64,000 bases of DNA from Candidatus Obscuribacterales bacterium (lineage in GTDB: Bacteria > Cyanobacteriota > Vampirovibrionia > Obscuribacterales > Obscuribacteraceae), in the NCBI GenBank assembly GCA_019744775.1, contig JAIETZ010000004.1:434001-498000 (forward strand). Direction: 5' to 3'. A program made the translations under genes and the position numbers. Under the pieces are notes generated by a model. The model saw nothing but the letters and a program-made list of their open reading frames with translations, searched no databases and was not told the origin of the DNA. Shown piece after piece: positions 11,690 to 31,393 of this stretch. How positions within the stretch are numbered: position 1 is the stretch's first letter; each line of letters starts with the position of its first letter.

Positions 11690-14600
11690 TTGAAGGTGCC
11701 TAAACTACTTATTTGCTTGCTAACCCTGCAGTTCGCTGTGGGGCAGTTGTGTCTCCCGGCGTCAGCGCAAGACGCACCGGCAGCTCCGCCGACAAATAAT
11801 CTCGACCTTGGTTCCGCTGACAAAACTGTCGCGGCATCGACAGTTATACAACCAGCAGCTCAAGCAACGATCAATCTTGGAGCGAACGCGGTTACCTATA
11901 CTTCAACAGACATGTTGACGGCAGCGGAAATGGTCGCTGTCCGTCAGGTACTTGCTACAGGCACACAATATCTCCAATTGAACGATCAAGGTGTCGCCGT
12001 CGGGGGCGGACTGCATTTACATTACTATGCCAATAACCTAAACAACTTGGTCATTCCGGAAGGCGTGCGCGCTTCGCAAAATGCCGCCGTACTGAGTTCG
12101 TTGAACCTAACAGGCAATCTAGCAAATTCAGGCACGTTGAATATTTTCTCCAATAATCCGGCTGTAACAGCAGCAACCATCAACGCCAACAACATCTACA
12201 ACAATGTTGGAGGACTCATCAATTCCAGTCTGGCGACATTGAATGTGAATGCCGTCAACAACATCGTCAATAATGGCACGATTATGAGCGCCGGTAATTT
12301 GAATATGACTGCCGGCGGTAGCATCGTAAATACGGCCGTTATGCAAGCCATGAGCGCAATAAATCTCGCATCAGGCGCTGGTAACATCGTCAATTCCGGA
12401 CTTATCTCATCACTTACGAGCAATATAAGCGTAAGCACGCAGACTATAAATAACCTGCTCGTCAATAACACAGGCGGCGTCATGCAAGCACTCAACGGCA
12501 GCATCAACGTGCGTGATGTTTTGTACAACGCTAAATCGAACACGTCATTAACAGGTGGCGATTGGTTGTCACAAACATTGAATACACATTCCGGCAATGG
12601 CATCGTTGATATAAACGTGGATAAACTAACCGGCAAGTTGAACGTCTATGCCGGTGAAGTGCATGTGCAGGCGGCAACAGACAATTTGCTCTTAGGGGAC
12701 ATGATAATCATTGGTGACCCCACTTATTACAACACTTTGGGCGACGTGACCATTGGCGGTAGCTTAAGTTTTTCCGGACAAGCTCTGGCAATTGTGGCCA
12801 ATCAGAATATCGTCACGACTTCCGGAGCAGGCGCAATAGATACAAGTTCAGCTACAAGCAATGGCGGCAGAATACTCATGTATGCCGGAGTGGCATTTAC
12901 ATCGAATGGTCCAGCGCAAGCAAATAACGACACAACATCGACACTGGCAATTACAGGTGTCTCAAGCACTGGCGGAAAAATCGATCTCAATACAGGAAGT
13001 GCAATTACTTCATTGACTTCACGAGGCGCAACCTCTTCAGGAAATGGCAACGGTGGCGCCATTCAACTGGCAGCATTTAAAGGCAGCAATTCAGATTCAG
13101 GAACAATAACACTGCCTTCAGCAGTAACAATCACATCAGGCGGTGGCGGGTCAGGCACTAACGGCCTTGTGCAAATGCTGGCTGAAGCAACAAGTGGTGT
13201 AGGTATAAGCGTAGGCGCAATAGATACGACCGGTGGCACAGGCACTGCTTCCGGTGCCGGTGCAATTACGCTGCATGCTGATGCAGCAGCATTCGGAATG
13301 TTTCCCACTTCCATCACCAACGGAGTCGGTGGCAGTATCGGAACAGTTTCAGATTTAGGCACTTCAACAGCTTCTGTAATTACAGGCGCGCTAACGACAA
13401 TCTCGACAGGAGCAAACTCAGCTCCCATAAGTATCGTCTCTGGCGGCAATGTCTTCATTAACGGCAACGTTACCATGAACAGTCTTGCCAGTACGACAGC
13501 GTCCAACAGCTTCTCAGTCAAGCTAATCAGCTCATCAGCATTTACCATCGGTGCAGGCGCATCCGGAACCGGCATTAACGGAAGTATTACATCTACTCCA
13601 GGAACTTCTGCTCCTGGAGCTTTGGTAAGTGTGACGAACAGCGGAACGGGCGGTATCACACTAAGTAATCCAGCCAATATCAGCAAAGCTGCAACTTCCG
13701 GTGCCGGCGGTAACTTAACGCTATCAGCACTACAAGGTCCTTTGTCCATTGGAGCAGGGACATTATCAACCAACGCTGCGGTATCCGGCACAGCCGGCAC
13801 CATGACTCTATACGGCACGACAATCACTGTGACCGGTGGTGGTGTTCTCAACCTCAATGCTAACAGCGTTGGAGCAGGGACAGGCGGCGTGGTAAATATT
13901 ACAGCGAGCGGGGCTGGTTCTTCATTGACTTTCGCCAACGTTGGCGGAGGCATGATTGTCCAAGCAACAGGTGGCGCAACCAGTGGTGGTGGCGGTACAG
14001 TAACAGCTTCTGCGGGAGGCAATATCACTTATAACGCTGCAATCACAATCGCTCCTAATGCTACTAATGGAGCAGGCGGCAACGTTACACTGAAGGCTGG
14101 TACGGCAGGAGCAGGTACCTTAAGCATCTCCAATGGATTATCTGTTAGCGCCAACGGTTCCGGAGCTGCTGGCACCCTTATACTTCAAGCTAGTTCACAA
14201 AGTGCGCTGACTATTGGAAACAACTTAACGGCATCTGGCGGTACCGGTGGCACCATTAAAATTGCTAACATCGGTATCGGCGGAATCGACTTCACAATTA
14301 CCAATGCTCTAACGGCAACTGCAACTGGTTCAAGTGGGGCAGGAGGCACAATTATCGTCGACGCAGGAGTTTTAGGAGGAATTACTGCGGTCTCCGGGAC
14401 ATGGTCCGCAAGTGCAAGTACAACAGGAGGCGCAAGTGGAGCCGGTGGAACGATTACAATCAACAGCGCGGCTCTTGTCGTTAGTGGCGGCGCACTTACC
14501 ATCAGTGCTAATGGTGCGCAGTCTGGTGCGACGAGTAAGGGTGGAACTATCTCAATTACTAACACTGCCGCAACAGCAAACTTCACAGTGGGCTCCGGCT

Positions 14601-17600
14601 CCGGTCAAGTAATTATTTCAGCAGTTAGTGGAAACGCCTCACTTGCCGCTGGTGGCATAGTGACAATTTCAACCTCACGAAACCTGACAATCGATCCTGC
14701 GTCGCTAACTGTAGTAAACAATGGAACTGAAGTTACGGGCGGTATTCTGACACTTTCTGCAGGCACGGCAGGACAAGGCAATTTATACATTAACGGCAGT
14801 TTGAATGTCAGTCCGTTTTCTTGCTCGTGTGGTTCAAATGGTGGCACTATCACTTTAAACTCAAACAGTAGTACCACTTTCACAGTAGGAGCAGGTGCTA
14901 CAACCAATGGTGTTAACGGGACGCTAACATCAAATGCGGGTAATATCGGCAGCACGGCTGGAACAATCAATATAACCAACCTGGGAACTGGCGGTATAAC
15001 AATTCTCGATCCGGCAAATTTGTTAGTAGGCTCCAATCTTGCCGGAGCAGGTGGCACAATTAAGTTAGAGGCACCAAACGGGCCACTAGCATTCTCCACT
15101 GGTGGAACACTTTATGCCAGTTCAAGTTCAGCAAGTACACCTAATGGCGGATTCATTACTCTTTATGCACAAACCATAAGCGTGTCGGGAGGAACAGCAC
15201 TTACCGTAGCTGCTAATGCTGGTGGTGGCACAGGCGGCATTGGCGGCACAATATCCATGACGGCGCTAAATCCGACTGCCAGTCTTACAATTGGTTCTGC
15301 CAGCGGTCAGTTTATCGTATCAGCAATAGGCTCAGGAGCCTCCGGCGCAAAAAATGGCGGAATAGTCACTATCTCCTCAGGCGGCAACTTAACCATTAAT
15401 ACCGCGAACCTGACTGCTGAGGGCACCGCGAATGGCGCAGGACCTCAACTTACATTTACGGCAGGGACCGGCGGTTCAGGCAATCTATTTATCAACGGTA
15501 CATTGAATGCGCGCGGTAACGGCTCAGGTACTGGTGGCACCGTCATTCTCAATTCCAGCAGCAGTACGACTTTCAATATGGTTTCAGGCGCTACGACTAA
15601 CGGCGTAAATGGAGCCGTAAATGTACAGTCTCAATCAAGCGGTGCCGGCGGCACGCTGCGTGTGAGAAACTTTGGGTCTGGTGGCATTTCAGTTGGCGGT
15701 ACAAGTAGCTTCAACTTAGCAGCCGTATCAGGAGCTGGCGGCACACTAGAATTAAATGCCGGTACGGGCACTCTCAACTTCGCCGCAAATACCATAATGG
15801 ACGTAAATGCTGCAAGCAGCGGGCTTGGCGGCACAATAACTCTTACAGCAGGAAATATTACAGGCTCAGGCAACATGGATTTACGAGCTGACGGAGCAAG
15901 TTCAAGCAATGGCGGAAACGTTACAATAACGACAACCAACGCAGGAAGTGCTTTAACAATTGGAACGGGAACCGCAGAATTCCAAGTTACGGCTCGGTCT
16001 GGTACATCCGGTGGAAACGGCGGCGTGGTCAACTTTTCCGCTGGCGGCAACGTTACAGGTGCCACCGCTTCGCTCACCATTGGACCTCGCGGCACCAACG
16101 GAAACGGCGGACAACTGACACTTACAGGCGGCAGCAACGGCTCTGGCAATGTATTCCTAGACAATTCCTTTAGCGCCACAGGCAATGGAACTGGAAACGG
16201 TGGTTCAATTACAATTAGTTCCAATAGCAGTACAGCTTTCACCTTAAGCAACGGTGCAACCGTTAACGGAGTTGGCGGCGGCTCTCTAACTGCAACTGAC
16301 GGTTCAACCGGAAGTGGTACTACACTGGGAGGCACCATTTCAATTACCAACCGCGGCACTGGCGGTATCACTTTTACTGCGACAGGCTCCGTGACCGTAA
16401 ACCAAGGAGCAGGTTCCGCCAAAGGTGGAACGATCACGTTGAATGCCGGCCCTGGTGTTCTGACAGTCCCTGGGGGAACAACTATATCAGCCAATGGTAC
16501 AGGTACGTCGTCAAATGGTTTTAACGGCGGGACGATTACAATTACAGCGTCGTCTCTATCCATATCCGGCGGCACACTGACACTACAGGCAAACGCTAAT
16601 TCCGCAGGTTTGAGTCCGGGTGGAACGATAAACGTCACAACCACAAGCAGCGCTTACGACATCGTGGTCGGCAGCGCAACCGGAAATTTGGTATTACAAG
16701 CAATTGCCAGCAATTGCTCCGGATGCTCAGGTATTGCCCGTGGTGGCAATGTTAGCCTCACATCAGCTTCAGATATAACTATAGCCCCCGCCTCACTAAA
16801 TATAAACACTACCCAATCAGGCAGCGGCGAAGGCGGTACTCTCAGTCTTGTTGCAGGGACTTCAGGGATGGGCAACGTATTCATTAGCAGCGGACTGTCA
16901 GTGGATGGACATAATGCCGGTGGCGGCGGCACAATCACAATTGTCACCAATAGTGCATCACCATTCACCGTGGGCACCGGAGCTTCTACCAATGGTATTA
17001 ACGGAGTCCTCAGCGCTCAATCCGGCACTTTAGGCGGCAACCAATGGGGCGGTGGAACAATTTCAATTACAAATAATGGAAATGGTGGCATAACACTGGT
17101 CAGTACAAGTAGTTTGACAGTAGCCGGTAACGGTTCAAACGCATATGGCGGAAATTTAACTCTGAATGCAGGACAAGGCATCTTTACCACACCCACAGGC
17201 ACACTCTCAGTCAATGCTATCGGCAATTCATTCGGCAATCCTGGTGGAACAATAAGCATTACTGGCTCTCATCTCAATGTAACTGGTGGTGCTCTTACAC
17301 TTACTGCCAATGCCGGTAGCAATGGATTCGGCGGTACGATCACACTGACGCAAACAAGCAACACATTAGATCTAGCCATAGGAACCGGCACTGGACAATT
17401 CATCCTTTCAGCAACAGGAGCGAGCACATCAGGTCAAGGCGGCACCATCAATCTCTCCTCCGGAAGGAACCTAACAATCTCAACAGGATCCATAACAGCA
17501 AATCCAGGCACAAACGGAAAAGGCGCTACTTATTCGTTTACAGCCGGTGCTACCGGCTCAACCGGTAATCTATATATCAATGGCAGCCTCTCTGCCAACG

Positions 17601-20600
17601 GTGTGGGTTCATTGGGACAAGGTGGTTCTGTTACCTTAGTATCGCGTAGCTCGACAACCTTCAATGTCGCAGGCGGCGCTACAACTAATGGAGTAGCTGG
17701 ATCGATTTCAGCTGACAACAGCAGCTCATCGGCAACACCCGGAACAATTTCAATAACCAACAATGGCACGGGCGGCATTACTCTTGGCGCCCTCTCAAAT
17801 TTATCCGTCAATGCAGCAGGGGTAACAGCGGACGGCGGCAGCATTACATTGAATGCAGGCAGTGGCACGCTAACTCTTCCAAGCGGCACACTTTCCGTCA
17901 GTGCTATCGGAAGTTCAACAACTAATGATGGAGGCACACTAAACCTTACAGCTCAGCAGTTAGCTATTACTGGCGGTAATCTTTCTTTGACAGCCGACGG
18001 TCAATTGGCAGGCAATGGTGGAACCATATCCGTAACCACAGCCAGCTCCACATATGACATTGTTGTAGGCTCAGGCAGCGGACAGATTTCGATATCAGCA
18101 ACCGGGGGAGACATTGGAAGCAGCAGTGGCAATGCAGGAACCGTCACCATATCTTCCGGAAATGATCTAACCATTACCCCCTCCAGCCTTGTAGTCACAT
18201 CCTACAGTTATGGCACAACAGGCGGCACCCTGAATCTGACCGCAGGCACCGGAGGAACGGGTAATCTCTTTGTCAATGGAAGTCTCAGCGCATCCGCAGG
18301 CTCGGTCTTATTTGGAGCTGGTGGTGGCACAATAAATATCACCTCACGAAGCTCGACTGCCTTCACGATTAATGCCGGCGCAACAACGAATGGTATCAAT
18401 GGTACGCTAACGGCATCAGCCGGAATACAAGGCAATGGCGGAACAATTTCCGTCGTCAACCTCGGTACAGGCGGTGTAACCGTCACATCGTTAGCGAATA
18501 TTTCTGTTGCCGCAGGCGTTCTTACCGGTAATGGCGGCTCATTAACTTTGAATGCCGGATCAGGAACTCTGACTGTAGCATCCGGAACAATCTCCGTATC
18601 CTCAGCCACAGGAAATGGTGGCACCGTTACTCTATATGGCACCCCAATTACAATTACCGGCGCAAGCGCACTCACAATAATGGCCAATGCCGGCGGGACA
18701 GGCAACGGCGGACAAATATTTGTTACTACCTTGGGCGCAACTACTGATGTGACGACTGGCACAGGCACGGGACAATACTTCCTTTCCGCCAACGGCGGAT
18801 CGCCATTTTCGGCATCCGGCAATGCCGGCAGTATTGTATTGATTGCTGGCAGAAACGTTACTAGTGCGAATGATTCAATTGTGGCACAGCCATTAGGGCT
18901 GAGTGGAAACGGAGGAACACTTAGTCTTACAGGTACAGGGAATGTATATGTTGGCAATACCCTATATCAAATAGGCAAGGGTACCGGCAACGGAGGAACC
19001 ATCTCTCTATCAAGTACTAGTTCGACTGTCTTCAATATTGCATCAGGAGCAACTACAAATGGCGTCAATGGCTCACTCGTTGCAGGTGCGGGTATTACAT
19101 CGGGAGATGGCGGAGCAGTCATCGTTCGTAATTTGGGATCCGGTGGTGTGACGCTCAGCGACACAAATAATTTCACAGTTTTACCATCGTATGGAGGCGG
19201 TGCGGGAGGGACGCTAACCTTACAAGCCAGCGGAACCTTAACGCTTCCCGGCACTACAACAGGTGCCTATTTTGTCAGCGCAACAGGCACCGGCAATAAA
19301 TCCGGCGGAAGTGTCACCCTTATTGGCGCACCAATCACTCTTACATCCAGCAGCCAACTCTCAATTCGCGCCGATGCCAGAGGGACAGGAGCCGGTGGCA
19401 CAATTACAATTACATCAGGTGGTAGTACATCCGATCTCACAGTAGGTGCTGCAAATATTTTCTTGTTGTCCGCAATGGGCGGTTCGGCAAATTCAGCAAG
19501 CGGCTCAGGTGGATCTGTAACAGTTACAACCGGCAGAAATCTTACGGTAGATCCAGCGTTAATTACCTACAATCCGCAAGGACTAAACGGAAATGGCGGT
19601 CAAATTTATTTGCAATCTGGTCTATCCGCCTCAGGAAATCTTGTAATAAGTTCATCGATATCAGCCAACGGCAAAGGCACGTCCTTAGCGGGAATAGTTT
19701 CCTTGACTACGAATAGCTCAACTACATTCAATATCGGTACCGCCGGCACAAGTGGTTTAACTGGAACAATTTCAGCCAATTCGGGATCCTTCGGCGGCAG
19801 CGGGGGCACAGTCTATGTACAGAATTCCGGTACCGGCGGCATAACACTTCCTTCTGCTGTTAATATATCGGTTAATGCATTAGGAACTGGAGGAGCTGGC
19901 GGAGGTATCACCTTAAGGGCAGACTCGGGAGCCCTTACATTGACTTCGGGTGTATTGTCGGCCAACGCAGCAGGCACAGGCAACTACGACGGTGGCACGA
20001 TATTACTGCGTGCTAACTCATTCTCCATTTCCGGAGGCGCCTTCACAGCAAACGCCAACGGTGTTAATAGCGGAAATGGCGGATTCATCACAGCAACGAC
20101 CTTATCGTCCACAGCAAGCGGTGCTATAACAATTGGCTCAGGCAGCGGCAATTTAGTCTTGAATGCAACAAGCGGAAGCGTTGGAGGAGGTGGCGGCAAA
20201 GTCACCGTCACCGCCGGACAAAATCTCAATGTCAACACTGGCTCTCTTTCGGTAGCCACCCTCGGTCCCAATGGCAATGGTGGAACTATCACGCTTACAA
20301 CAAGTGCCGGACTAATGTTAATCACCGGCACACTTTCAGCCAATGGTGTTGGTACAGGAAATGGCGGTTCTATAACTTTGAATATTCACAATAGTAGCAG
20401 CACATACTTTGTAATTGGCGGCGCATCAACCAATGGCATCACCGGAAATCTAACAGCAAATGCAGGCTCCAATTATGGCAATGGTGGTTCAGTAACAATT
20501 AACGACTATCAAAATTGGGGCTCACAACTGACGGCAACGTCAAATATTTCCGCGGCTGCTTCAGCAGGTGGTGGCAACGGCGGCACGATTAAGATTATAG

Positions 20601-23600
20601 CTTTCGGCACAAGCGATCTACAACTTCCCACTGGCACGCTATCAGTTGACGGACAAGGCAATGGAAATGGTGGCACAATCGAATTCAATACATTCTACTT
20701 TAGCGGAACTCCAACCACAACTCTTTTCGCAAATGGCGATGGCTACGGTAATGGTGGTTCTATTAGCCTGACTGAAACACAGGGAGGTAGTCGATTTATT
20801 ACTGTAGGTCCAAGTGGATTTACAATTGCCGCCAATAGCGGTGCATCCGGCGGCAATGGCGGCACTGTCTATCTTAATGCGGCCGGCTCAGCGCTTACAG
20901 TCAACATGTTGTGGCTAACTGCTGATCCTTTAGGCACAAACGGCAACGGTGCAAACTATACTTTCATAAACGGAAGTAGCGGATCACTCGGCGCACTGCA
21001 AATAACGGGAGACGTCAATGCAAATGGCGTCGGCAATGGCAACGGCGGCTCAGTAACAATCATTTACTCAGATGCCACCAATCCGTTTACCGTTGGCACA
21101 ACAAGCAGTCAATTCGTCTCAGGGGATATATTTGCCAACGCACCGACTACCGGCAATGGTGGCTCTATTTCAATTACAAATACTTATGCTACTGGTCCTC
21201 TCACTGTAAACATGACGGACAACATTACTGCCAATTCCGGCAGCGGCACGCTGGGCACAGTGACCTTCAACAAGTCCGGACAAGCGGTGTCAGTAACAGG
21301 TAGTGGTCAATTGATAGGCAATGTAATAGCAACAGGAGCATCAGTAACCTTATCTCCACAATCAGGACTAACGGCAAAAACGATAACATCATCAGCCGGC
21401 AATATCTTGTTATCTGTTAACTCCGGCGCCCTCGCACTAGCAAGCTCTGCAGCACTGTCAGCCACTCAGGGTAGCATAACTATCCAAAACAACGACACTA
21501 CGACAGGAACCATAGCGATTGGTGCAAACTCCACTATCTCTGCAACCTCTACCACTTCCGGACAGGGCAGAGTCAATATAGTCATAGGCTCTGTTCCTGG
21601 CTCACCTGTTGCAGGCATTCAGCCTAGCAATTTCACAGCAAATCTAACCAATGCCGGAACAATCTATTACGGCAGTCCTAACTTTACGTCAAATTCCCCA
21701 ACCAACACGGCCAACGTAGATGGTGGAAGAGTCCTCTTCAACAACACGGGCAGCATCGGTGCAACCGCAGTTACTTTGAATGGTGGCGTTGTCATCAATT
21801 CAACTGCACCTGGACTTCCAGTCTTAACCAGTCTTGACCTTACAGATCCTTCCATCACATCGTACATACAAACTCAACAAGGATTGGGCACACTCGGTGG
21901 TACTCTCATTCTTTCCAGCGGCGTCGCGCAACCAGGCAGCACACTTACAATTCAACCCGGCAATTTGTCAGCGTCACTTTCGTCATTTAACATCCCAGCT
22001 GGTGTCGTCGTCACAATGGACTCCTTCACCGGCTCCAATACAATCACCATCGACATAACTGGTAGCAGCTTCACCACACAAGCAACCCTCACCGGAACAA
22101 CCGCATTCGGCTCCGGCTCCGGCACCCTCGTAATCAACTCCACACAAGCCGGCAATGCATTCCTAATCAACTCCGCTGGTGTCCTAAGCAGCACAGCAAC
22201 TCTCGACATTTCAACGAACAGAAGTGCAAGTATCGCCGGCACAATTACAGCTACAACACTAAATATCACCACAACTGCAAACAACGGCGCCATAAGCGTA
22301 ACGGGAAGCATCACAGGTTCTGCCGGAGTCAACCTAACAACTAATGGCACCGGTAACGTCACCAGCGGTGTATCGTCGTCTATTCTAGCAACCAATAATC
22401 CAATTACAATTACTGCAAATGACGTTGCTTTCTCCGGCTCCGTAAATGCTGGAACAGGCACAGTGACTCTGAAACCAAACAGCACGCAAACCATGTCTCT
22501 GAACGGAGCTGGCGGAACATTCTCAGTGCTTTCGACTGATTTAAACAACATCATTGCCGGGACAATGGTCCTTGGCTCCAACACCAATTCAGGAACTATC
22601 ACTCTTGCAGGCGCACTAACACTGCCAGGATCAGGCTCAGCTGGAACGACCGCCGGTCTCTACAATCTGGAACTCAGAAGCGGAGCTGCCGGTGGCACAT
22701 ATTCAGCCGGTTCAAATGCATTGAATGTCAGAGGACAAAACCTAACAATCAACGTTGCCGGTAGTGCCAATACAGGAAGCGGCGGAATCTCCGGAACCTC
22801 CGGCACCGTAGCAATCACCGGTGGTGGCGTGACTCTTGGTGCAGCAATCACATTATCCGGCAACGGCACAATCAACCTTACTGCTACAGGCAGCACTAAT
22901 CTCACCATGAATGGCAATGTTCAAACTGCATCGGGCGGGCAAATCTTGTTAAACACCGGAACTGGGGGATTCAGTCAGGGTGCCAATATCTCGACGGGCA
23001 GCTTAGTCTTTACCAGCACAAGCGGCTCCGCATCCCTGAATACAACCGTTAGCAACTTTACAGCCAACACAACCGGCAGCATCAACCTAACAAATACAGG
23101 TGCTCTAATAATTGGCCCGGCAGGGACTACTAGCACAGCCAACACCTTCACCGTATCGAATAATCAAACAATCACTGTGAACGGTGGCATTACAGCAAGT
23201 TCTATTTCCGGTGTATCTCTGACAACAACTGCCAACAGCGGCAATATAGACGTCAACGCCGATGTTACAGGAGGCGGTATTACATTCAGCACCAATGGCA
23301 ATGGCATAGTGACAAATGCTGCCTTAACAGATATCGAAGCAACTAATGGAACACTGCAGATAACAGCCAGCAACGTACTTTTCAACGGCACCCTGACTGG
23401 TCCTAACGATGTCCTACTTCTCGCCAATGGCAGTATTCCAGTGGTTATAGGCGGTACCAGCGGTACTTTCAACGTTACAAGTTCTGTGATAAATGCTGTA
23501 ACCGCTAACAACCTACTAATCGGTTATGGTTCGAGCATGACCGTAGTCGGTCCTGTGGATGTCTCAAGTGCAAACTTCAACGGATTCTACCTTCAACCGA

Positions 23601-26600
23601 CCGGAAGTTACTCGGCTAACGGACAAACGATGACAATTGGTGGCAAGACATTGAGTGTTCAAAATTTAGGGTCAGGAAGCATCGATACCGGAGCGGTTAC
23701 CGGCAACAGCAGTTCTAGTATTACCTTCAGCGCTTCTTTGTCTTTAACAGTCTCAGGAGCTATTACTGGCGGCGACATGCAATTCTCTAACAGTTCTGGA
23801 AACATGACATTTGCAGCAGGCGTATCAGGCACTTCAATAAACACCAACAGCCCCGGTGAAATAATTCAAAGTTCGGGAACTATTGCAGGAACAAGTCTAA
23901 ATCTTAATGCCACCAATGGTATTGGACTTCTAAGTCCTATTCAAACGGCTATTACTTCGCTCATAGTGAATACGGGGTCATCTTCTAGCGCTTTCATTTC
24001 TAACGCTGGAGCATTACAGATAAATTCATCCACCGTCGGAAATCAATTCCAAGTAGCCACAACAGGAGCAAGCGCAAACATTACAGTGAGCGGTACAGTA
24101 ACTGCAACCAATGGACAGCTTCAACTAAGCGCAAATGGCAATATAACCACCAATGCCGCAATTTCCGGAAACACCTTGACTCTCCAAACGTTAACCGGCA
24201 CCAACGGTACTATTGCTCTTAACCATAACGTAACCGGAACTAATGGAGTTACGATCACCACAAACGGAAATGGGAACGTCACAAACGCAGTTACTCGCTC
24301 AATAACCGCTACAAACGCTTCAATTTCCATCACCGCTAATGATGTAATTTTTAGCGGTTCGGTCAACGCGGGCACAAGCGGATCAGTTTCACTGATACCA
24401 AATGGTGCTAAAGCTATTACCGTCGGCGGAGGCGCTGCAACTTTCAATGTCAGCTCCACAGAGCTTGCTGCGATTACTGCTGGCACTTTAACGATCGGCA
24501 CAACGGCTCAAGTAGGCGGCTTCACCGTAGGTGGCAATTTGAATGTTTCCGGCGCAGGTCCAGCCGGTGCTTACAACTTGGTGTTCAACAATGGCGGCAA
24601 TTACACAGCAGCTGGTCGAACAATCACGTTGGGTACTAAGACGCTGACAGTCAATGCTCTAGGCACTGTAACTACCGGTACAGTGACAGGTGGCAATACA
24701 ACAGTACTGATTACATCAGGTACCGGAACTACCGTTTCGAATGCTGTGACTGTCACCGGTGGCACAGTTACTCTTAATACGACCAACAATGGAAGCATTC
24801 TCATTACTGCCAACGTAGGCGGCGGCGCAACTACTAATATAGATGTGCACGGTTCTGGCAATATCGATCTGGCAGGCAGTGGCTACAACGTTACAGGTAC
24901 CACAGTAAATCTTTCATCGGATAACGGCATCATAGGCACAACCGGTGGTGGAGTACCGACAATAGCCGGCACGTTGACAATAAACGGCGGCAGTGACGCA
25001 CTGGTTACAAATACCGGAGACGTAATACTCGGCACCTCGGCTACCGGTGGTTATCTGAGACTAATTACTGCAACAGCCGGTTCAGACATCAGCACGTCAG
25101 GGACAGTAGCCGCGACTGGTGCACTTATATTGGAAGCAACAGGCAACGTCACAACAAGCAATCCAATCTCCGGCGATGAGGTAAGAGTAACATCCAATGA
25201 TGTATCATTTGGCGCCACCGTTACTTCACCTAACCTCATTTGGCTTCAACCGTCAGGCAGTCAGTCAATCTCCATCGGTGGAGCAGGGGGTACGTTCAGC
25301 GTATTGAATTCGGACTTGGCACAAATGAGTGCGCCGAGAGTGATTATTGGGTCGAACACAACTCCTGGAAATATTACTGTAACGGCAGGCGTAAATATTT
25401 CAGCCCGGAATTACGACTTACAAATAGAAACCGCCGGAACTTATTCTGCTGCTGGTCAAACGGTGACTCTCGGCGCAAATGACCTTAGCGTAACCTCTAC
25501 CGGTACACTCAATGCCGGCACAGTAACCAGCACAGGTGGTCAAATATCCCTGACAGGGGCAACCGTTACCGCCGCTGATTTAACAACGGCAAACAATGGC
25601 AGTGGCTTCTCCGGTAACGTTTCTATTGTCTCTGGTGGCACTGTCACGGTGTCGGATATCTCTACGGGCTCCACTTCAACAGCTATTGCAGGCGGCATTT
25701 ATATAACCGCTGTCGGCGCAATCACTACGGACACACTGAGCACAAATACCAATTTAAATGGCGTTGGAAATCCTAACGCATCGGGAAGTGCCGGCGGTGA
25801 GATTCAACTGGAAAGCAACAGCGGCACCTTCAATCTCAATTCCATAAATACATCCAGTGGTGGCAGCACCGCAGGCGAATTGACATTTTCGCAAAACGGT
25901 AGTGTGTTAACAACGCCGACTGTAACCTTTGCTACAAATTCCAACATCACCATGAAGAGTGTCAGTTCCAGCACCGGACCGTCTGTATCAATTAACTTAG
26001 CCAACGCAAATACACTTGGAAGCATAGATACATCAAACAATGGCAGCGGTGTCTCGGGCAATGTAAATTTGACGTCCGCCAGCTCTATAACTTTAGTAGA
26101 CATTCATACTGGATCTGTCGGCACAGCTCAAGCCGGTACCATTACGATCAATTCCGGCGGTGCGGTTAACGTAAGAGACCTATGGGCAAGTACTAGTACC
26201 AATGGAGTCGGAAATCCCAACGTGGTAGGCGGTGCAAGCAACAACATATTAGTGATCGCCACCACATCTATCACCACACGCGACCTTAACGCCAATGTAG
26301 CAGGCTCTAATGCAGCCGGTACTGTCACCTTATCCGCAGGCGGCGCGATTATCACAAGTGATGTTTTCACTGGCTCCACAGGCAGTGGAGTCGCCGGCAC
26401 CATCACCATGACTGCAGGTGGCTCTATCACAACAGACACCCTTAACACAAATACGAACTTAAACCCAGTCGGAAATCCTAACGCCTCTGGTAGTGCCGGT
26501 GGTGACATCACGTTGGACAGCAGCACCGCCACCTTCAGCCTTAATTCCGTTAACACGGCTAGCGGCGGCAGCACAGCCGGAGCCTTGATATTCAAGCAAA

Positions 26601-29600
26601 ACGGTGTTGTGCTGGGAACGCCGACCGTCACTATGGCTACAAACTCAACAATCACCATGAGCAGCGTCAGCTCCTCTAGTGGACCTTCTCTATCACTTAA
26701 CCTAGCCAACTCCAATACACTCGGAGCCATAACCACATCCAACGCTGGCACCGGTGCAGCAGGTGACCTTACCTTGACCTCCAGCGCATCAATCACGACG
26801 GGAGCTCTAACTGCCACTTCAGGAGGCGCTCTGGGTGGTGATATAACCGTCACATCAACAACTTCTACGGTAGCCACAGGAGCGATCACAACAAGCAATG
26901 CGGCAGTGACGATTACTGCCAGCGACGTGTCCCTAACTAGTGCAGTCAATGCCGGTACTGGTACCGTCAGCCTCTTGCCAAATAGCGCATTGTCGATATC
27001 AGTTGGTGGATCAGGAGGCAGCTTCTCCGTACTCGCAACTGATTTAGCAAACATCACTGCAGGCACTCTAGTTGTCGGCACTACATCTCTAGCCGGTGAT
27101 TTTACAGTGGCAGGCAATCTTAATGTCTCAGGAACAGGCGCCGGCAAGTACAATCTAGAGTTTAATACTGGTGGTAACTACACGGCCGTTGGTCAGACAA
27201 TTACTCTAGGCACCAAAACGCTCACTGTTGCCGCGCTAGGCACATTGAATACAGGAACAGTGACCGGCGGAAATTCGACAGTGCAACTAACTGGTGGCAC
27301 AGGTATGACTGTGTCGGGCGCAATTACATCGACAGGTACTGTAAATCTCGACACCACCAACAGCGGCTCCATCTCCATTGGTGCCAATATTTCTGCACCT
27401 ACGTTGGATGTAACTGCTGATGGTGCAGGAACAATTACCCGCTCTGGTAATTTCACATTGACGGCTACTACGTTGACGCTGGCTTCGACCTCCGGTGACA
27501 TTGGTCAATTCGGCACTCCGCTTCTGACTGATTCCACTTCGATTACAGCTTCGACAGCCGGCTCCATTTACATTACAGAAACCGGGAACGTAAACCTATC
27601 TTCATTTACTGTCGGTTCGGGTAAAACTCTTCAGCTTTCGACAACCGCTGGTGGTTCGATCATTGTTGACACCAATTTGACGACGGCAAGCACAATTTTT
27701 CTTGATGCTGATGGAGCCGGAACAATTACACGGTCTGGTAATTTCAACTTGTCGGCTACCTTGATCACGTTAAGTTCAGACACCGGCAATATTGGTCAAG
27801 CAGGAACACCATTGAAAGCTGACGCTGTCGTACTTATCGTCTCTACAGGCGGTTCAATATACTTAAATAGCAGTACAGATTTGGCTACAAGTTCATTTAC
27901 TGTTGGTGCCAATCAGACACTCGATCTTTCAACTTCAGCCAACGGCTCTATATTGGTTGACACAGATGTCACTGCCGACACAATTCGACTGTCGACCGCT
28001 GGTAACGGTGATATCACACGCGCGGGCAATGTTACTCTCACTGCCAACACTATCGCCTTGAGCACGTCGTCAGGTAATATTGGTGACTTTGGCACAGAAC
28101 TTCAAACCAATGCCGGCACTCTAACGATTTCGACCGGTGGATCCGCTCTTATCAATGAAGCCGATTCGGTCAATCTTGGTGCTTCAAACATTAGCGGCAC
28201 GCTTGAATTAACTACAACTGGCAACGACGGTAGTATCACCGTAACGGGCAATGTCTCAGCCACAAGCATGCTTCTGTCCACCGATGGTGTCGGAGAAATT
28301 CAGCGTTCGGGCAACTTTACTCTCAGCGCAACAGCCGTAATCAACTTAGGTTCAGACAACGGCAATATAGGAACATCATCGTCGCCACTGCTAATTGATA
28401 CAAACACGATAACCATTCAGACAGGTGGTTCAGTCTTACTCAGAGAAGACGATAGCATCAACCTTGGTTTTACAAATGTCGGTGGCACGCTTGAACTCAC
28501 AACTCTAAATGGTGGTGATATTGTCTTATCAAGCACGATAACAGCCACATCAATGACGCTCACTGCCAATGGCGCCGGCTCAATTCTCGACGGCGGTAGT
28601 GGCTCTTTGTCAGCTACATCTGTAATCAATCTCGCTTCAACATCCGGCGATATTGGTGCATCGGGCAACGAGATAAACACCAGCACAAGTACCCTCACTG
28701 CTAACACCTCGGGCAACATATACATAATCGAAGTCGATAGCGTTAATCTCGGATTTACTAATGCAGGCGGAGTACTGGAACTTACAACAACTGCCAACGG
28801 CACTATCACTCTGTCGGATCAAGTTACAGCCACAACAATGATACTAACAGCTAACGGAACAGGCGAAATTCTCCGTGGCGGTACGCAAACAATTTCCGCC
28901 AACACTATGACGCTAAGTTCGACACTGGGCAATATCGGTAGCCCAACGACTCCAATACTTACAGATGCCGGCGTACTGACAGTAAATACAGCTGGACATT
29001 CCTATGTCGTCAACACCAACAGCTTGACCCTAGCTAATTCCAACGTAGGCGGAACACTTTCACTATCAACCAACGGAACCTTGACCACGTCAACCGCCAA
29101 CAGTGCTCAAACGCTCGATTTGACCGCTGCTTCAGTAAACAATAGCGCAACTCAAACAGCTACCGGTCCGACAGGAACCATAACAATAACTGGAGCAGGC
29201 GGTTCAAGCGTTACGATAACCGGAGGCGGTACACTAGCCGGCGCAGGCGGTATAAACATCAACGCTACCACCAACGATGTGATTTTCGCAGGCAGTCAAA
29301 CTTTTAACGGCAATGCATTTATAGATGCAACTGGTACTTCTGGTGATGTGATTGCAGCCAACGGAGTGACCGTATTCAGCAATGCCAACATGACTGTTAA
29401 CAGCACAACACCAGTTGTAAACACGGCAGCTTTCGGCGCAGCAGGAACTCTTTCAATCAATGCTGGTCCTCCTGTACCGCCGACGCCTCCTACGCCAACT
29501 TCTGAAGAAACCACAAGCCCGACTTTAATAGCAATAGTTGCTGATGCGTCCAGCGCCAGCACATCGGCTTTCCAAACAAGAAATGATCCCATTGTAATTT

Positions 29601-31393
29601 CAACAGACCAAAACCAAGGCATCGCCGGCAACAGCTTGTCACAAGCCTTGCTTAACAACGTTACCAACGGACTATCAACAATCTTGTTCGGCGGCGGCGG
29701 TTCTACAGCTGCACCAAGCAGCACCATATTGAACAGCAACGTCATTTCCAATGCTCCAAATCCCGGACCGATAACAGGTAGCAGCATCAACAATTCAACT
29801 AACAGCAACACCATCGTAACAAGCGATGTCGATCTCACACCATTTGCCGATTTGTTGCCTACTGGAGACACGACTGTCAGCGGGCAAATTGTTGACAGCA
29901 AAACAGGAAATATAACTGCCGGAAATTTGCCAAATGAACTATCAGCGACACCTGGCACAATAGTTCCATCACGTAGTCCATCCGACAACCAGAGCGGACA
30001 GAGCAATCCTCTAAGTTCGCTGGGTGAGATGTTCAAGGTTGGCGAAACACGCACAAATTTAGTCATGTTCACGATGGCGAACCAAGTATTCTCCGGATTC
30101 ATCGGCGGCAATAACGACACTATGGTCAGCGGCACACCAGGAACCATATTCAGCACTGACAAAAATACTGTTGTTCTACATACCGGCCACATGCTAACCG
30201 ACAACGGGAAGCAAGGCATGACCGTATTCACAAATCAAGCTGCCGTAATGATTGGAGCAGATGCCGCAGCAGTTGTTGATGTTCATCCAGGCTCTCCTAC
30301 TCGTGTAATGGCTGTTGCCGGACAGGGAAGTTCATCGACCACAGTGCGCACGAGAGACGGTTTGGTTATTCCATTAGCGGCCGGGCAAGAGGTGATCATC
30401 GGACAAACAGACTTGTCCGATGAAGACCTCATTCCGGTCGATGGCATGGATCGTGAATTCGTCTCCGGCGGAATCCAGGTCGCTAGCCGTAAAGTCGCTA
30501 AGGACAATTTCTCGCTCGATGAATTCATGGACAAGGAAATCATGGTTGCGGGAGTTCCTGTAAGACTAGGCGGCAACAACAAGAGATTGCATGGAAAGAT
30601 TAGCGCTGCCGCCAAGAGAGCACGCAACACAAATATTGCCGCCAATTACCGCAAGAAGAAAAAAGGCGATGACGACAGCGAAGATGAAGAAAAGAGCGCC
30701 CCAATCATAACCAAGGCTCCGGATGGGCAAGATGTTGTTGAAGAGTCCAGCGAACCAGCTAGAGTACTAGCCGAGAAAGAAACGCAATTCAGTCTGACAC
30801 AGCCGGGAAGAATGCAGTTACTTAAAGGCTCTCTATTCATGCACAATGCTGACCCTACTATTGTCGATACCCCATTAGGTCAGGTCCGCGGCGTCAAAGA
30901 TTCTATGTTCAAGGTATCCTCCGGCGACGGCACGACACGCGTCCAAGCTATGTCTGGTCCTGACGAAGTATCTGTTATTGCCGGCAAACGTCTGATACCT
31001 CTCAATTGCGGCAAAGAAGTCTTTATAACTGATCACAAACCGAATCAGTCGGAATCCGTTCCGGCTGACGGGGTAGGACGTAGAGGAATGTCGGCATTTT
31101 CTCTCGATGGAGCATTGAGTGCAATTGTTGGTGACTTCTCGATGGTCACATTGCTTAACAGCACACAATTCTTGAATCCACTGAAACACCCAGTGTCTCA
31201 AAGTGATCAACAATTACATGAACAAATAGTCAAGGCTGCTGCTGTTATTCAGCACGTACTCGGCAATCGCGGACGCTATTACATTGCTCCCAAGGAGCGA
31301 GCCTCACTGCCAATTCCCGAGTGGGTGATAAAGACGACTGGCAGCAAGCAGGACAGCACGCAGTTATTGAAGGCAATGCTAAACGCCCAGTAA
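11690..31393 (+). CDS. Giant secreted repeat protein, filamentous-haemagglutinin-like, with C-terminal FecR-like modules (6567 aa)
   Basis: One uninterrupted frame of 6567 codons, starting at TTG. A signal peptide (residues 1-26, ASA/QD) is followed by a haemagglutinin/TPS-like N-terminal region (about 30-330, with LTAAEMVAVRQV and the NSG/NNG-rich turns of beta-helices). Three repeat zones follow: about residues 600-3150, 3570-5140 and 5240-5800, each rich in Gly, Thr, Ser, Asn and Ala with almost no Cys or Trp. These predict a very long right-handed beta-solenoid. A Pro-rich linker (about 5926-5944) leads to two FecR-like modules (about 6113-6238 and 6365-6448) separated by a Lys/Asp/Glu-rich segment, and then a basic C-terminal tail. 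Such proteins act as adhesins or surface filaments. No TpsB transporter, beta-barrel or LPXTG anchor is seen, so the export route past the inner membrane is unknown. Confidence 0.88.
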   Translation: MKVPKLLICLLTLQFAVGQLCLPASAQDAPAAPPTNNLDLGSADKTVAASTVIQPAAQATINLGANAVTYTSTDMLTAAEMVAVRQVLATGTQYLQLNDQGVAVGGGLHLHYYANNLNNLVIPEGVRASQNAAVLSSLNLTGNLANSGTLNIFSNNPAVTAATINANNIYNNVGGLINSSLATLNVNAVNNIVNNGTIMSAGNLNMTAGGSIVNTAVMQAMSAINLASGAGNIVNSGLISSLTSNISVSTQTINNLLVNNTGGVMQALNGSINVRDVLYNAKSNTSLTGGDWLSQTLNTHSGNGIVDINVDKLTGKLNVYAGEVHVQAATDNLLLGDMIIIGDPTYYNTLGDVTIGGSLSFSGQALAIVANQNIVTTSGAGAIDTSSATSNGGRILMYAGVAFTSNGPAQANNDTTSTLAITGVSSTGGKIDLNTGSAITSLTSRGATSSGNGNGGAIQLAAFKGSNSDSGTITLPSAVTITSGGGGSGTNGLVQMLAEATSGVGISVGAIDTTGGTGTASGAGAITLHADAAAFGMFPTSITNGVGGSIGTVSDLGTSTASVITGALTTISTGANSAPISIVSGGNVFINGNVTMNSLASTTASNSFSVKLISSSAFTIGAGASGTGINGSITSTPGTSAPGALVSVTNSGTGGITLSNPANISKAATSGAGGNLTLSALQGPLSIGAGTLSTNAAVSGTAGTMTLYGTTITVTGGGVLNLNANSVGAGTGGVVNITASGAGSSLTFANVGGGMIVQATGGATSGGGGTVTASAGGNITYNAAITIAPNATNGAGGNVTLKAGTAGAGTLSISNGLSVSANGSGAAGTLILQASSQSALTIGNNLTASGGTGGTIKIANIGIGGIDFTITNALTATATGSSGAGGTIIVDAGVLGGITAVSGTWSASASTTGGASGAGGTITINSAALVVSGGALTISANGAQSGATSKGGTISITNTAATANFTVGSGSGQVIISAVSGNASLAAGGIVTISTSRNLTIDPASLTVVNNGTEVTGGILTLSAGTAGQGNLYINGSLNVSPFSCSCGSNGGTITLNSNSSTTFTVGAGATTNGVNGTLTSNAGNIGSTAGTINITNLGTGGITILDPANLLVGSNLAGAGGTIKLEAPNGPLAFSTGGTLYASSSSASTPNGGFITLYAQTISVSGGTALTVAANAGGGTGGIGGTISMTALNPTASLTIGSASGQFIVSAIGSGASGAKNGGIVTISSGGNLTINTANLTAEGTANGAGPQLTFTAGTGGSGNLFINGTLNARGNGSGTGGTVILNSSSSTTFNMVSGATTNGVNGAVNVQSQSSGAGGTLRVRNFGSGGISVGGTSSFNLAAVSGAGGTLELNAGTGTLNFAANTIMDVNAASSGLGGTITLTAGNITGSGNMDLRADGASSSNGGNVTITTTNAGSALTIGTGTAEFQVTARSGTSGGNGGVVNFSAGGNVTGATASLTIGPRGTNGNGGQLTLTGGSNGSGNVFLDNSFSATGNGTGNGGSITISSNSSTAFTLSNGATVNGVGGGSLTATDGSTGSGTTLGGTISITNRGTGGITFTATGSVTVNQGAGSAKGGTITLNAGPGVLTVPGGTTISANGTGTSSNGFNGGTITITASSLSISGGTLTLQANANSAGLSPGGTINVTTTSSAYDIVVGSATGNLVLQAIASNCSGCSGIARGGNVSLTSASDITIAPASLNINTTQSGSGEGGTLSLVAGTSGMGNVFISSGLSVDGHNAGGGGTITIVTNSASPFTVGTGASTNGINGVLSAQSGTLGGNQWGGGTISITNNGNGGITLVSTSSLTVAGNGSNAYGGNLTLNAGQGIFTTPTGTLSVNAIGNSFGNPGGTISITGSHLNVTGGALTLTANAGSNGFGGTITLTQTSNTLDLAIGTGTGQFILSATGASTSGQGGTINLSSGRNLTISTGSITANPGTNGKGATYSFTAGATGSTGNLYINGSLSANGVGSLGQGGSVTLVSRSSTTFNVAGGATTNGVAGSISADNSSSSATPGTISITNNGTGGITLGALSNLSVNAAGVTADGGSITLNAGSGTLTLPSGTLSVSAIGSSTTNDGGTLNLTAQQLAITGGNLSLTADGQLAGNGGTISVTTASSTYDIVVGSGSGQISISATGGDIGSSSGNAGTVTISSGNDLTITPSSLVVTSYSYGTTGGTLNLTAGTGGTGNLFVNGSLSASAGSVLFGAGGGTINITSRSSTAFTINAGATTNGINGTLTASAGIQGNGGTISVVNLGTGGVTVTSLANISVAAGVLTGNGGSLTLNAGSGTLTVASGTISVSSATGNGGTVTLYGTPITITGASALTIMANAGGTGNGGQIFVTTLGATTDVTTGTGTGQYFLSANGGSPFSASGNAGSIVLIAGRNVTSANDSIVAQPLGLSGNGGTLSLTGTGNVYVGNTLYQIGKGTGNGGTISLSSTSSTVFNIASGATTNGVNGSLVAGAGITSGDGGAVIVRNLGSGGVTLSDTNNFTVLPSYGGGAGGTLTLQASGTLTLPGTTTGAYFVSATGTGNKSGGSVTLIGAPITLTSSSQLSIRADARGTGAGGTITITSGGSTSDLTVGAANIFLLSAMGGSANSASGSGGSVTVTTGRNLTVDPALITYNPQGLNGNGGQIYLQSGLSASGNLVISSSISANGKGTSLAGIVSLTTNSSTTFNIGTAGTSGLTGTISANSGSFGGSGGTVYVQNSGTGGITLPSAVNISVNALGTGGAGGGITLRADSGALTLTSGVLSANAAGTGNYDGGTILLRANSFSISGGAFTANANGVNSGNGGFITATTLSSTASGAITIGSGSGNLVLNATSGSVGGGGGKVTVTAGQNLNVNTGSLSVATLGPNGNGGTITLTTSAGLMLITGTLSANGVGTGNGGSITLNIHNSSSTYFVIGGASTNGITGNLTANAGSNYGNGGSVTINDYQNWGSQLTATSNISAAASAGGGNGGTIKIIAFGTSDLQLPTGTLSVDGQGNGNGGTIEFNTFYFSGTPTTTLFANGDGYGNGGSISLTETQGGSRFITVGPSGFTIAANSGASGGNGGTVYLNAAGSALTVNMLWLTADPLGTNGNGANYTFINGSSGSLGALQITGDVNANGVGNGNGGSVTIIYSDATNPFTVGTTSSQFVSGDIFANAPTTGNGGSISITNTYATGPLTVNMTDNITANSGSGTLGTVTFNKSGQAVSVTGSGQLIGNVIATGASVTLSPQSGLTAKTITSSAGNILLSVNSGALALASSAALSATQGSITIQNNDTTTGTIAIGANSTISATSTTSGQGRVNIVIGSVPGSPVAGIQPSNFTANLTNAGTIYYGSPNFTSNSPTNTANVDGGRVLFNNTGSIGATAVTLNGGVVINSTAPGLPVLTSLDLTDPSITSYIQTQQGLGTLGGTLILSSGVAQPGSTLTIQPGNLSASLSSFNIPAGVVVTMDSFTGSNTITIDITGSSFTTQATLTGTTAFGSGSGTLVINSTQAGNAFLINSAGVLSSTATLDISTNRSASIAGTITATTLNITTTANNGAISVTGSITGSAGVNLTTNGTGNVTSGVSSSILATNNPITITANDVAFSGSVNAGTGTVTLKPNSTQTMSLNGAGGTFSVLSTDLNNIIAGTMVLGSNTNSGTITLAGALTLPGSGSAGTTAGLYNLELRSGAAGGTYSAGSNALNVRGQNLTINVAGSANTGSGGISGTSGTVAITGGGVTLGAAITLSGNGTINLTATGSTNLTMNGNVQTASGGQILLNTGTGGFSQGANISTGSLVFTSTSGSASLNTTVSNFTANTTGSINLTNTGALIIGPAGTTSTANTFTVSNNQTITVNGGITASSISGVSLTTTANSGNIDVNADVTGGGITFSTNGNGIVTNAALTDIEATNGTLQITASNVLFNGTLTGPNDVLLLANGSIPVVIGGTSGTFNVTSSVINAVTANNLLIGYGSSMTVVGPVDVSSANFNGFYLQPTGSYSANGQTMTIGGKTLSVQNLGSGSIDTGAVTGNSSSSITFSASLSLTVSGAITGGDMQFSNSSGNMTFAAGVSGTSINTNSPGEIIQSSGTIAGTSLNLNATNGIGLLSPIQTAITSLIVNTGSSSSAFISNAGALQINSSTVGNQFQVATTGASANITVSGTVTATNGQLQLSANGNITTNAAISGNTLTLQTLTGTNGTIALNHNVTGTNGVTITTNGNGNVTNAVTRSITATNASISITANDVIFSGSVNAGTSGSVSLIPNGAKAITVGGGAATFNVSSTELAAITAGTLTIGTTAQVGGFTVGGNLNVSGAGPAGAYNLVFNNGGNYTAAGRTITLGTKTLTVNALGTVTTGTVTGGNTTVLITSGTGTTVSNAVTVTGGTVTLNTTNNGSILITANVGGGATTNIDVHGSGNIDLAGSGYNVTGTTVNLSSDNGIIGTTGGGVPTIAGTLTINGGSDALVTNTGDVILGTSATGGYLRLITATAGSDISTSGTVAATGALILEATGNVTTSNPISGDEVRVTSNDVSFGATVTSPNLIWLQPSGSQSISIGGAGGTFSVLNSDLAQMSAPRVIIGSNTTPGNITVTAGVNISARNYDLQIETAGTYSAAGQTVTLGANDLSVTSTGTLNAGTVTSTGGQISLTGATVTAADLTTANNGSGFSGNVSIVSGGTVTVSDISTGSTSTAIAGGIYITAVGAITTDTLSTNTNLNGVGNPNASGSAGGEIQLESNSGTFNLNSINTSSGGSTAGELTFSQNGSVLTTPTVTFATNSNITMKSVSSSTGPSVSINLANANTLGSIDTSNNGSGVSGNVNLTSASSITLVDIHTGSVGTAQAGTITINSGGAVNVRDLWASTSTNGVGNPNVVGGASNNILVIATTSITTRDLNANVAGSNAAGTVTLSAGGAIITSDVFTGSTGSGVAGTITMTAGGSITTDTLNTNTNLNPVGNPNASGSAGGDITLDSSTATFSLNSVNTASGGSTAGALIFKQNGVVLGTPTVTMATNSTITMSSVSSSSGPSLSLNLANSNTLGAITTSNAGTGAAGDLTLTSSASITTGALTATSGGALGGDITVTSTTSTVATGAITTSNAAVTITASDVSLTSAVNAGTGTVSLLPNSALSISVGGSGGSFSVLATDLANITAGTLVVGTTSLAGDFTVAGNLNVSGTGAGKYNLEFNTGGNYTAVGQTITLGTKTLTVAALGTLNTGTVTGGNSTVQLTGGTGMTVSGAITSTGTVNLDTTNSGSISIGANISAPTLDVTADGAGTITRSGNFTLTATTLTLASTSGDIGQFGTPLLTDSTSITASTAGSIYITETGNVNLSSFTVGSGKTLQLSTTAGGSIIVDTNLTTASTIFLDADGAGTITRSGNFNLSATLITLSSDTGNIGQAGTPLKADAVVLIVSTGGSIYLNSSTDLATSSFTVGANQTLDLSTSANGSILVDTDVTADTIRLSTAGNGDITRAGNVTLTANTIALSTSSGNIGDFGTELQTNAGTLTISTGGSALINEADSVNLGASNISGTLELTTTGNDGSITVTGNVSATSMLLSTDGVGEIQRSGNFTLSATAVINLGSDNGNIGTSSSPLLIDTNTITIQTGGSVLLREDDSINLGFTNVGGTLELTTLNGGDIVLSSTITATSMTLTANGAGSILDGGSGSLSATSVINLASTSGDIGASGNEINTSTSTLTANTSGNIYIIEVDSVNLGFTNAGGVLELTTTANGTITLSDQVTATTMILTANGTGEILRGGTQTISANTMTLSSTLGNIGSPTTPILTDAGVLTVNTAGHSYVVNTNSLTLANSNVGGTLSLSTNGTLTTSTANSAQTLDLTAASVNNSATQTATGPTGTITITGAGGSSVTITGGGTLAGAGGININATTNDVIFAGSQTFNGNAFIDATGTSGDVIAANGVTVFSNANMTVNSTTPVVNTAAFGAAGTLSINAGPPVPPTPPTPTSEETTSPTLIAIVADASSASTSAFQTRNDPIVISTDQNQGIAGNSLSQALLNNVTNGLSTILFGGGGSTAAPSSTILNSNVISNAPNPGPITGSSINNSTNSNTIVTSDVDLTPFADLLPTGDTTVSGQIVDSKTGNITAGNLPNELSATPGTIVPSRSPSDNQSGQSNPLSSLGEMFKVGETRTNLVMFTMANQVFSGFIGGNNDTMVSGTPGTIFSTDKNTVVLHTGHMLTDNGKQGMTVFTNQAAVMIGADAAAVVDVHPGSPTRVMAVAGQGSSSTTVRTRDGLVIPLAAGQEVIIGQTDLSDEDLIPVDGMDREFVSGGIQVASRKVAKDNFSLDEFMDKEIMVAGVPVRLGGNNKRLHGKISAAAKRARNTNIAANYRKKKKGDDDSEDEEKSAPIITKAPDGQDVVEESSEPARVLAEKETQFSLTQPGRMQLLKGSLFMHNADPTIVDTPLGQVRGVKDSMFKVSSGDGTTRVQAMSGPDEVSVIAGKRLIPLNCGKEVFITDHKPNQSESVPADGVGRRGMSAFSLDGALSAIVGDFSMVTLLNSTQFLNPLKHPVSQSDQQLHEQIVKAAAVIQHVLGNRGRYYIAPKERASLPIPEWVIKTTGSKQDSTQLLKAMLNAQ
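13541..21130 (+). repeat. Repeat zone A of the giant protein: about 229-residue unit, 12 landmarks
   Basis: A short landmark of the form F-[T/N]-x4-GATTNG-[V/I]-NG recurs in frame. The codons for its first residue lie at 13541, 14207 (a reduced form), 14879, 15572, 16238, 16964, 17660, 18362, 19031, 19727, 20408 and 21086. The spacings are 666-726 bases (222-242 residues; mean about 229). Between landmarks the order of sub-motifs is conserved: GGTI-type strands, GTGGIT, NAGSGTL, ISGG-LTL-NA, then VGSGSG and GNLFINGSLSA. DNA identity between units is visibly lower than protein similarity, so the units are old. They do not look like recent recombination products. Confidence 0.85.
22421..27105 (+). 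repeat. Repeat zone B of the giant protein: about 290-320-residue unit, 5 landmarks
   Basis: A second landmark (N-D-V-x-F/L, then a SGSVNAGT-like strand and a GGxGGTFSVL segment) recurs in frame, with its Asp or Asn codon at 22421, 23372, 24341, 25199 and 26924. The spacings are 317, 323, 286 and 575 residues, the last probably two units with one landmark lost. Inside it, 25730-26050 and 26435-26755 (offset 705 bases) are a clear internal duplication sharing NPNASGSAGG and a following GGSTAG segment. Confidence 0.8.
27400..29080 (+). repeat. Repeat zone C of the giant protein: about 96-residue unit, 6 landmarks
   Basis: Short units are marked by S-x-[S/D]-x-G-[D/N]-I-G, with the D/N codon at 27497, 27788, 28076, 28364, 28649 and 28931. 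The spacings of 291, 288, 288, 285 and 282 bases (94-97 residues) are much more regular than in zones A and B. Each unit also carries a TRSGNF/QRSGNF-like strand before the landmark and a VNLG/FTVG strand after it. Confidence 0.85.

Follow-up and report, generated by a model that had tools for sequence, protein, structure and literature searches.

Results

A stop-free frame of 6567 codons

We analysed a 64-kb stretch of DNA (hereafter, the window) from a genome of the order named Candidatus Obscuribacterales in the NCBI taxonomy. Positions 11690-31393 of the window hold a single frame of 6567 codons without a stop (Table 1), opened by a TTG codon with an AAGGA motif 7 bases upstream. Shuffling bases within codon position led us to expect ~117 in-frame stops, against 0 observed, which bears out the first claim of an earlier, sequence-only reading of this DNA: a frame that stays open for 19.7 kb. 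The encoded protein starts with a signal-peptide-like stretch, and AxA-type ends of this kind are similar in most complete members of the paralogous family described below. Its composition is uneven, charged residues making up 4% of residues 1-5900 and 22% of the C-terminal module.

Table 1. Position of the giant ORF and its parts in the window (residues are those of the 6567-aa protein).
Feature	Residues	Window position	Strand	Evidence
Giant ORF, 6567 aa		11690..31393	+	TTG start, AAGGA RBS, orthologue L048:3-7985
Signal-peptide-like N-terminus, ending ..PASAQDA	1-27	11690..11770	+	Sequence, hydrophobic stretch
Conserved N-terminal domain, predicted beta-helix with capping strands and one helix	28-420	11771..12949	+	A1 profile; AF2
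Zone A, 12 tandem units of ~229 aa	581-3300	13430..21589	+	HMM domains, E 1e-47 to 1e-72; 11-12 copies in three C6 paralogues
Zone B, 5-6 units of ~304 aa	3574-5344	22409..27385	+	HMM domains; last unit overlaps zone C start
Unit D, single direct duplication of 236 aa inside zone B	4625-5073	25562..26908	+	HMM, periodicity
Zone C, six units of ~96 aa	5233-5796	27386..29077	+	HMM; amplified internal segment of unit B
Low-complexity linker	~5930-6109	29477..30016	+	Sequence; low pLDDT
First FecR-like copy	~6110-6250	30017..30439	+	A2 twice in L048; paralogue matches
Second FecR-like beta-domain and conserved helical tail	6357-6567	30758..31390	+	Alignments/profile A2, AF2, Foldseek

Three repeat zones and three unit types

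Repeat units were placed by iterated profile HMMs, for which shuffled-sequence controls gave no domain below E 0.01. Periodicities of ~229, ~280-320 and ~95-97 residues stand far above shuffled controls in this protein and, together with the HMM units, confirm the repeat zones with units of ~229, 290-320 and 96 residues that had been proposed from the letters of the DNA. The zones are hence real, but they do not amount to three separate repeat classes, as had also been proposed. When profiles built from non-overlapping units were compared, the ~96-residue unit fell on columns 171-244 of the longer unit B, at 92.6% and E 4.6e-7, whereas a reversed control reached 0.2%. By this comparison, zone C is an amplified internal third of unit B, not a class of its own. 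Units A and D show no detectable relation to B in the profile comparison (with B built from other units). Taking zones A and B as versions of one unit was tried and rejected, profile support reaching only 24.7% at best. At the level of profiles, the independent unit types are three: A, B and D.

The 236-residue duplication that constitutes unit D, as well as the N-terminal and C-terminal modules, had been missed by the sequence-only reading. That reading also had unit length falling towards the C-terminus; along the protein it actually goes from 229 to 304 and then to 96 residues. The contrast it drew with FHA as a protein with one repeat class is weak, since FHA itself has more than one repeat type.

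Old repeats in a frame under purifying selection

Long repeats are well known to mislead assemblers, and two frames of the family run into contig ends, so that one can easily suspect an assembly artefact, a chimera or a decaying frame. Several observations speak against it. The units share a mean amino acid identity of ~37-42% and a DNA identity of at most ~59%, with synonymous differences near saturation, and are too diverged to have been collapsed in the assembly; TRF found no long-unit array either. Besides, an orthologue (L048:3-7985) with the same organisation is present in an independent metagenome assembly, that of Obscuribacterales bacterium D3_Bin_14. The alignment spans zone B from residue 3915 through the C-terminus and covers 2,648 residues at 89.6% identity, with indels of 1-3 residues only and an unchanged repeat number. 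The dN/dS between both genes is 0.097 overall and 0.06-0.12 zone by zone, indicating that the giant ORF is under strong purifying selection. Synteny is also kept, with a YlqD-like gene, rpoD and cytochrome-c-biogenesis-like genes near the orthologue. For residues 3915-6565 the L048 orthologue refutes the artefact, which we consider extremely improbable for the frame as a whole; zone A comes from one assembly, no orthologue of this zone having been recovered from the fragmented same-genus genomes G129 and G140.

D3_Bin_14 additionally carries a shrunken giant (L048:8165-10104) between the orthologue and the YlqD-like gene. Its N-terminal domain is intact, its frame ends at ~611 residues, and a fragment of the C-terminal tail lies in another frame. 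It has no counterpart in the window, where 85 bases occupy this place.

The same data bear on how the array arose. The sequence-only reading spoke of a stepwise-built filament, which in any recent sense is not supported, given the near saturation of synonymous sites, the constant copy number over the 2,648 residues compared with the orthologue, and the presence of the same 11-12-unit zone A in three paralogues on contig C6. Among these paralogues, the zone A units at the two ends of the array tend to cluster by position and those in between partly by protein, which indicates that the array predates at least some of the gene duplications and has been remodelled since.

Conserved modules at both ends

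Searches of Pfam and NCBIfam with all parts of the 6567-residue protein gave no meaningful match, Pfam matched none of 18 N-termini and 25 C-termini of the family, and a search of PDB sequences with both end profiles returned nothing convincing. In the AlphaFold model of residues 29-810 the chain forms a beta-helix, with pLDDT mostly >90 over residues ~38-400. Foldseek against the PDB gave non-significant matches for this model (best E 0.12, TM 0.13-0.25), the four best of which are secretion domains or exoproteins of two-partner secretion (TPS) systems (8cpk, 4rm6, 2odl).

A second AlphaFold model has low confidence over repeats and linker, and pLDDT values of about 50-86 over the last ~210 residues (76-86 over most strands). 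This C-terminal module has the FecR/PupR fold, which takes Foldseek ranks 1 to 4 with probability 1.00 and E values of 8e-4 to 8e-3 (4m0n, 6ovk). The profile of the module (A2) matches the L048 orthologue twice (E 2.7e-8 and 1.2e-60), which indicates that the C-terminal end consists of two FecR-like copies followed by helices. The modelled fold is thus that of FecR/PupR signalling domains, yet the module differs from them in two respects. It has no Pfam FecR match (PF04773 in none of the 25 C-termini, and only sub-threshold hits in the genome search, in two paralogues), and it ends giant repeat proteins, as two copies plus a helical tail, instead of standing behind a membrane anti-sigma segment.

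A family occupying about a tenth of the genome

Searching the genome (4,104,983 bases in 13 contigs) with both ends of the protein revealed a family of 20 frames of 1,728-25,007 residues, totalling 125,921 residues or 9.2% of the genome. Two parts define the family: a beta-helix domain at the N-terminus and, at the C-terminus, a FecR-like module that ends in a helical tail. The 6567-residue protein carries both (profiles A1 and A2). Four of the frames lie head to tail on C6 (20890-105525) and the others are mostly dispersed. The longest, G000:C2:174643-249666 (L023-L026), spans 75 kb and 25,007 codons, has the same ends as the rest of the family and contains 0 stops against ~474 expected after within-position shuffling. 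Frames G000:C4:1-5585 and G000:C5:1-18378 hit contig ends and may be a single giant that the assembly cut in two. The FecR-like module also stands alone, as six small signal-peptide-like proteins of 230-580 residues (L042, L043, L044, L045, L046 and L047) carry it without long rods. None of the papers searched was found to describe these genes or this family in Obscuribacterales; one undescribed protein family occupies about a tenth of the genome.

In a fragment search, nearly all giants are similar to some paralogue over 95-100% of their length (69% in the shortest). In a tree of the N-terminal domain, two related genomes supply 1:1 orthologues of several paralogues, which indicates that the family is old and that its members are individually maintained. 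Rod length can still change, as judged from several indels of 70-200 residues between the protein at C1:229701-238727 (L018, 3008 aa) and its orthologue L052 (3431 aa). L018 also holds, at residues ~1084-1800, an internal duplication of recent date (92% identity at an offset of 516 aa), whereas the repeats in the 6567-residue protein are old.

Distribution

The N-terminal profile found matches in 40 of 382 sampled genomes of the class, all of the same order, and the C-terminal profile in 49 of 365. Matches are confined to the family of the window and one sister family of this order, while ~310-330 other genomes of the class have none. Across a sample of 386 genomes of the phylum, only the window's own genome matched. 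A conserved peptide pattern was also run against 84,980 species genomes and retrieved 22 loci, in bins titled Obscuribacterales or Melainabacteria and two others, one of them titled Chloroflexi. The SBAT01 contigs of that MAG (Chloroflexi bacterium Bin_14_1_1) contain close orthologues (L049, L050, L052, L054, L061, L067 and L068), and its title looks like a mislabel. Judged by profile matches, both end modules are restricted to Obscuribacterales in the sampled genomes. Other genera also have frames of 9,500-12,580 residues.

Route of export

The N-terminus is of Sec type and the protein has 0 copies of the RTX motif GGxGxD, a combination at odds with RTX/type I secretion. Nor does it end like an autotransporter (type V a/c): in place of a C-terminal barrel, the model has a small beta-domain plus helices, with no Pfam match. 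We found no secretion partner beside or within the giant ORF, and among 89 genes neighbouring the giants only TPR and housekeeping families recur, 2-4 times each.

The giants could be TPS exoproteins of the FHA/HMW1/HxuA type, whose TPS domain has diverged and whose exporting TpsB has gone unrecognised. The N-terminal beta-helix behind a Sec signal is of the type expected of such an exoprotein, and the best PDB matches of the N-terminus, though non-significant, point the same way. However, Pfam detected the TPS domain PF05860 in none of the 18 N-termini, nor in the genome (a search whose control was silent), the motifs NPNG(I/V/L) and NPNL are absent from every N-terminus of the family, and ShlB has no match in the genome. 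The sole POTRA_2 match and the sole Omp85 match of the genome, in searches whose controls worked, fall in one BamA-like ORF (C1:27-29 kb). Since this single Omp85 is BamA-like, ShlB and TPS matches are lacking and no partner gene recurs beside the giants, two-partner secretion is disfavoured and, to us, quite unlikely. The genome encodes two secretins (C4:434583 and C11:185706). The first, at window positions 535-3210 on the minus strand, is a candidate outer-membrane gate, with no link to the giant.

Discussion

Giant repetitive surface proteins are an already known kind (PMC12863079, PMC10066038), and PMC12057145 cites giant genes of up to about 85,800 residues; the end modules of Obscuribacterales match no Pfam or NCBIfam family. 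A close likeness in architecture is that with Giant1-5 of Apilactobacillus kunkeei, paralogous giant surface proteins of 3,000-8,000 residues that take up 6% of a 1.5-Mb genome, stand several per genome in consecutive genes and, in Giant1-4, have N-terminal beta-solenoid domains (PMC12863079). Their host is Gram-positive and belongs to an unrelated clade; the comparison is one of architecture. In contrast to them, the genome analysed here has 20 mostly dispersed frames in 9.2% of 4.1 Mb, of up to 25,007 residues, in which repeats form the bulk of the length and the C-terminus is FecR-like. With FHA, HMW1, HxuA and EtpA the giants share a signal peptide, a beta-helix domain right behind it and a long body of repeats, but they have no recognisable TPS domain, NPNG/NPNL motifs or genomic TpsB, are several-fold longer and have a conserved FecR-like C-terminus. 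Giant ORFs of Omnitrophota are likewise common across a whole clade, with few annotated domains and a presumed surface role (PMC10066038). Poor conservation is reported for those ORFs, which often contain transmembrane helices (PMC10066038), whereas the Obscuribacterales giants keep both ends throughout the order, and strong purifying selection acts on orthologues.

Our preferred reading, to which we give a probability of about 0.6, is that the 6567-residue protein is one of a family of giant envelope proteins specific to Obscuribacterales, which are exported by Sec and anchored to the envelope as beta-solenoid fibres or adhesins. The chain, for the most part uncharged, would leave the cytoplasm by the Sec route, and its N-terminal beta-helix domain would cap it or nucleate its folding. 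The repeat zones would then stack into a continuous beta-solenoid, a rod some 100-150 nm long if each coil takes ~20-30 residues and rises by 4.8 Å, and the charged FecR-like module with its helical tail would remain at the envelope as an anchor or retention module. Paralogues, placing different rods on shared ends, would yield fibres that vary widely in length and surface. The likeliest use of these is in adhesion, aggregation or biofilm; they may also serve as a coat. The very long surface filament of the sequence-only reading survives as a long repetitive exported protein, probably a rod, as supported by the signal-like N-terminus, the beta-helix model and the purifying selection; its location at the surface is plausible.

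A cell-surface fate is not the only one conceivable. The giants may be retained as a structural scaffold, whether in the periplasm or in the space that separates peptidoglycan from outer membrane, their FecR-like C-terminus acting as in periplasmic signalling domains. The C-terminal domains of FecR and PupR are periplasmic, and no dedicated outer-membrane exporter was found, both in keeping with a scaffold. Yet rods this long must lie flat in the periplasm, and lengths as different as 1,728 and 25,007 residues are easier to explain outside the cell, which makes a scaffold unlikely. A role in attacking prey or host cells, or in attaching to them, by analogy with what has been proposed for the giant ORFs of Omnitrophota, draws on the predatory or host-associated habit of other bacteria rich in giant ORFs (PMC10066038, PMC11573180). 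Analogy is the sole tie to lifestyle, however, and no part of the 6567-residue protein matches a catalytic or carbohydrate-binding family; we consider such a role very unlikely.

A more specific form of the envelope-fibre reading can be put forward tentatively. The giants may form an order-specific surface-fibre system, a modular multigene family in which rods of 1,700 to 25,000 residues are held between a fixed N-terminal cap and the FecR-like module, crossing the outer membrane by a route that is neither TPS, type I nor autotransporter, with the C-terminal module as sorting or anchoring signal.

Short-read assemblies break inside giant genes, and the family is therefore probably under-reported. 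The end modules are present in most sampled genomes of the order, and the host is a non-photosynthetic relative of the cyanobacteria; the giant family offers a handle on how these little-known relatives build their cell surface. Its shared ends pose the question of which end sends the protein to the envelope or holds it there, and its rods are a natural series for studying how beta-solenoids grow when units are duplicated in whole or in part.
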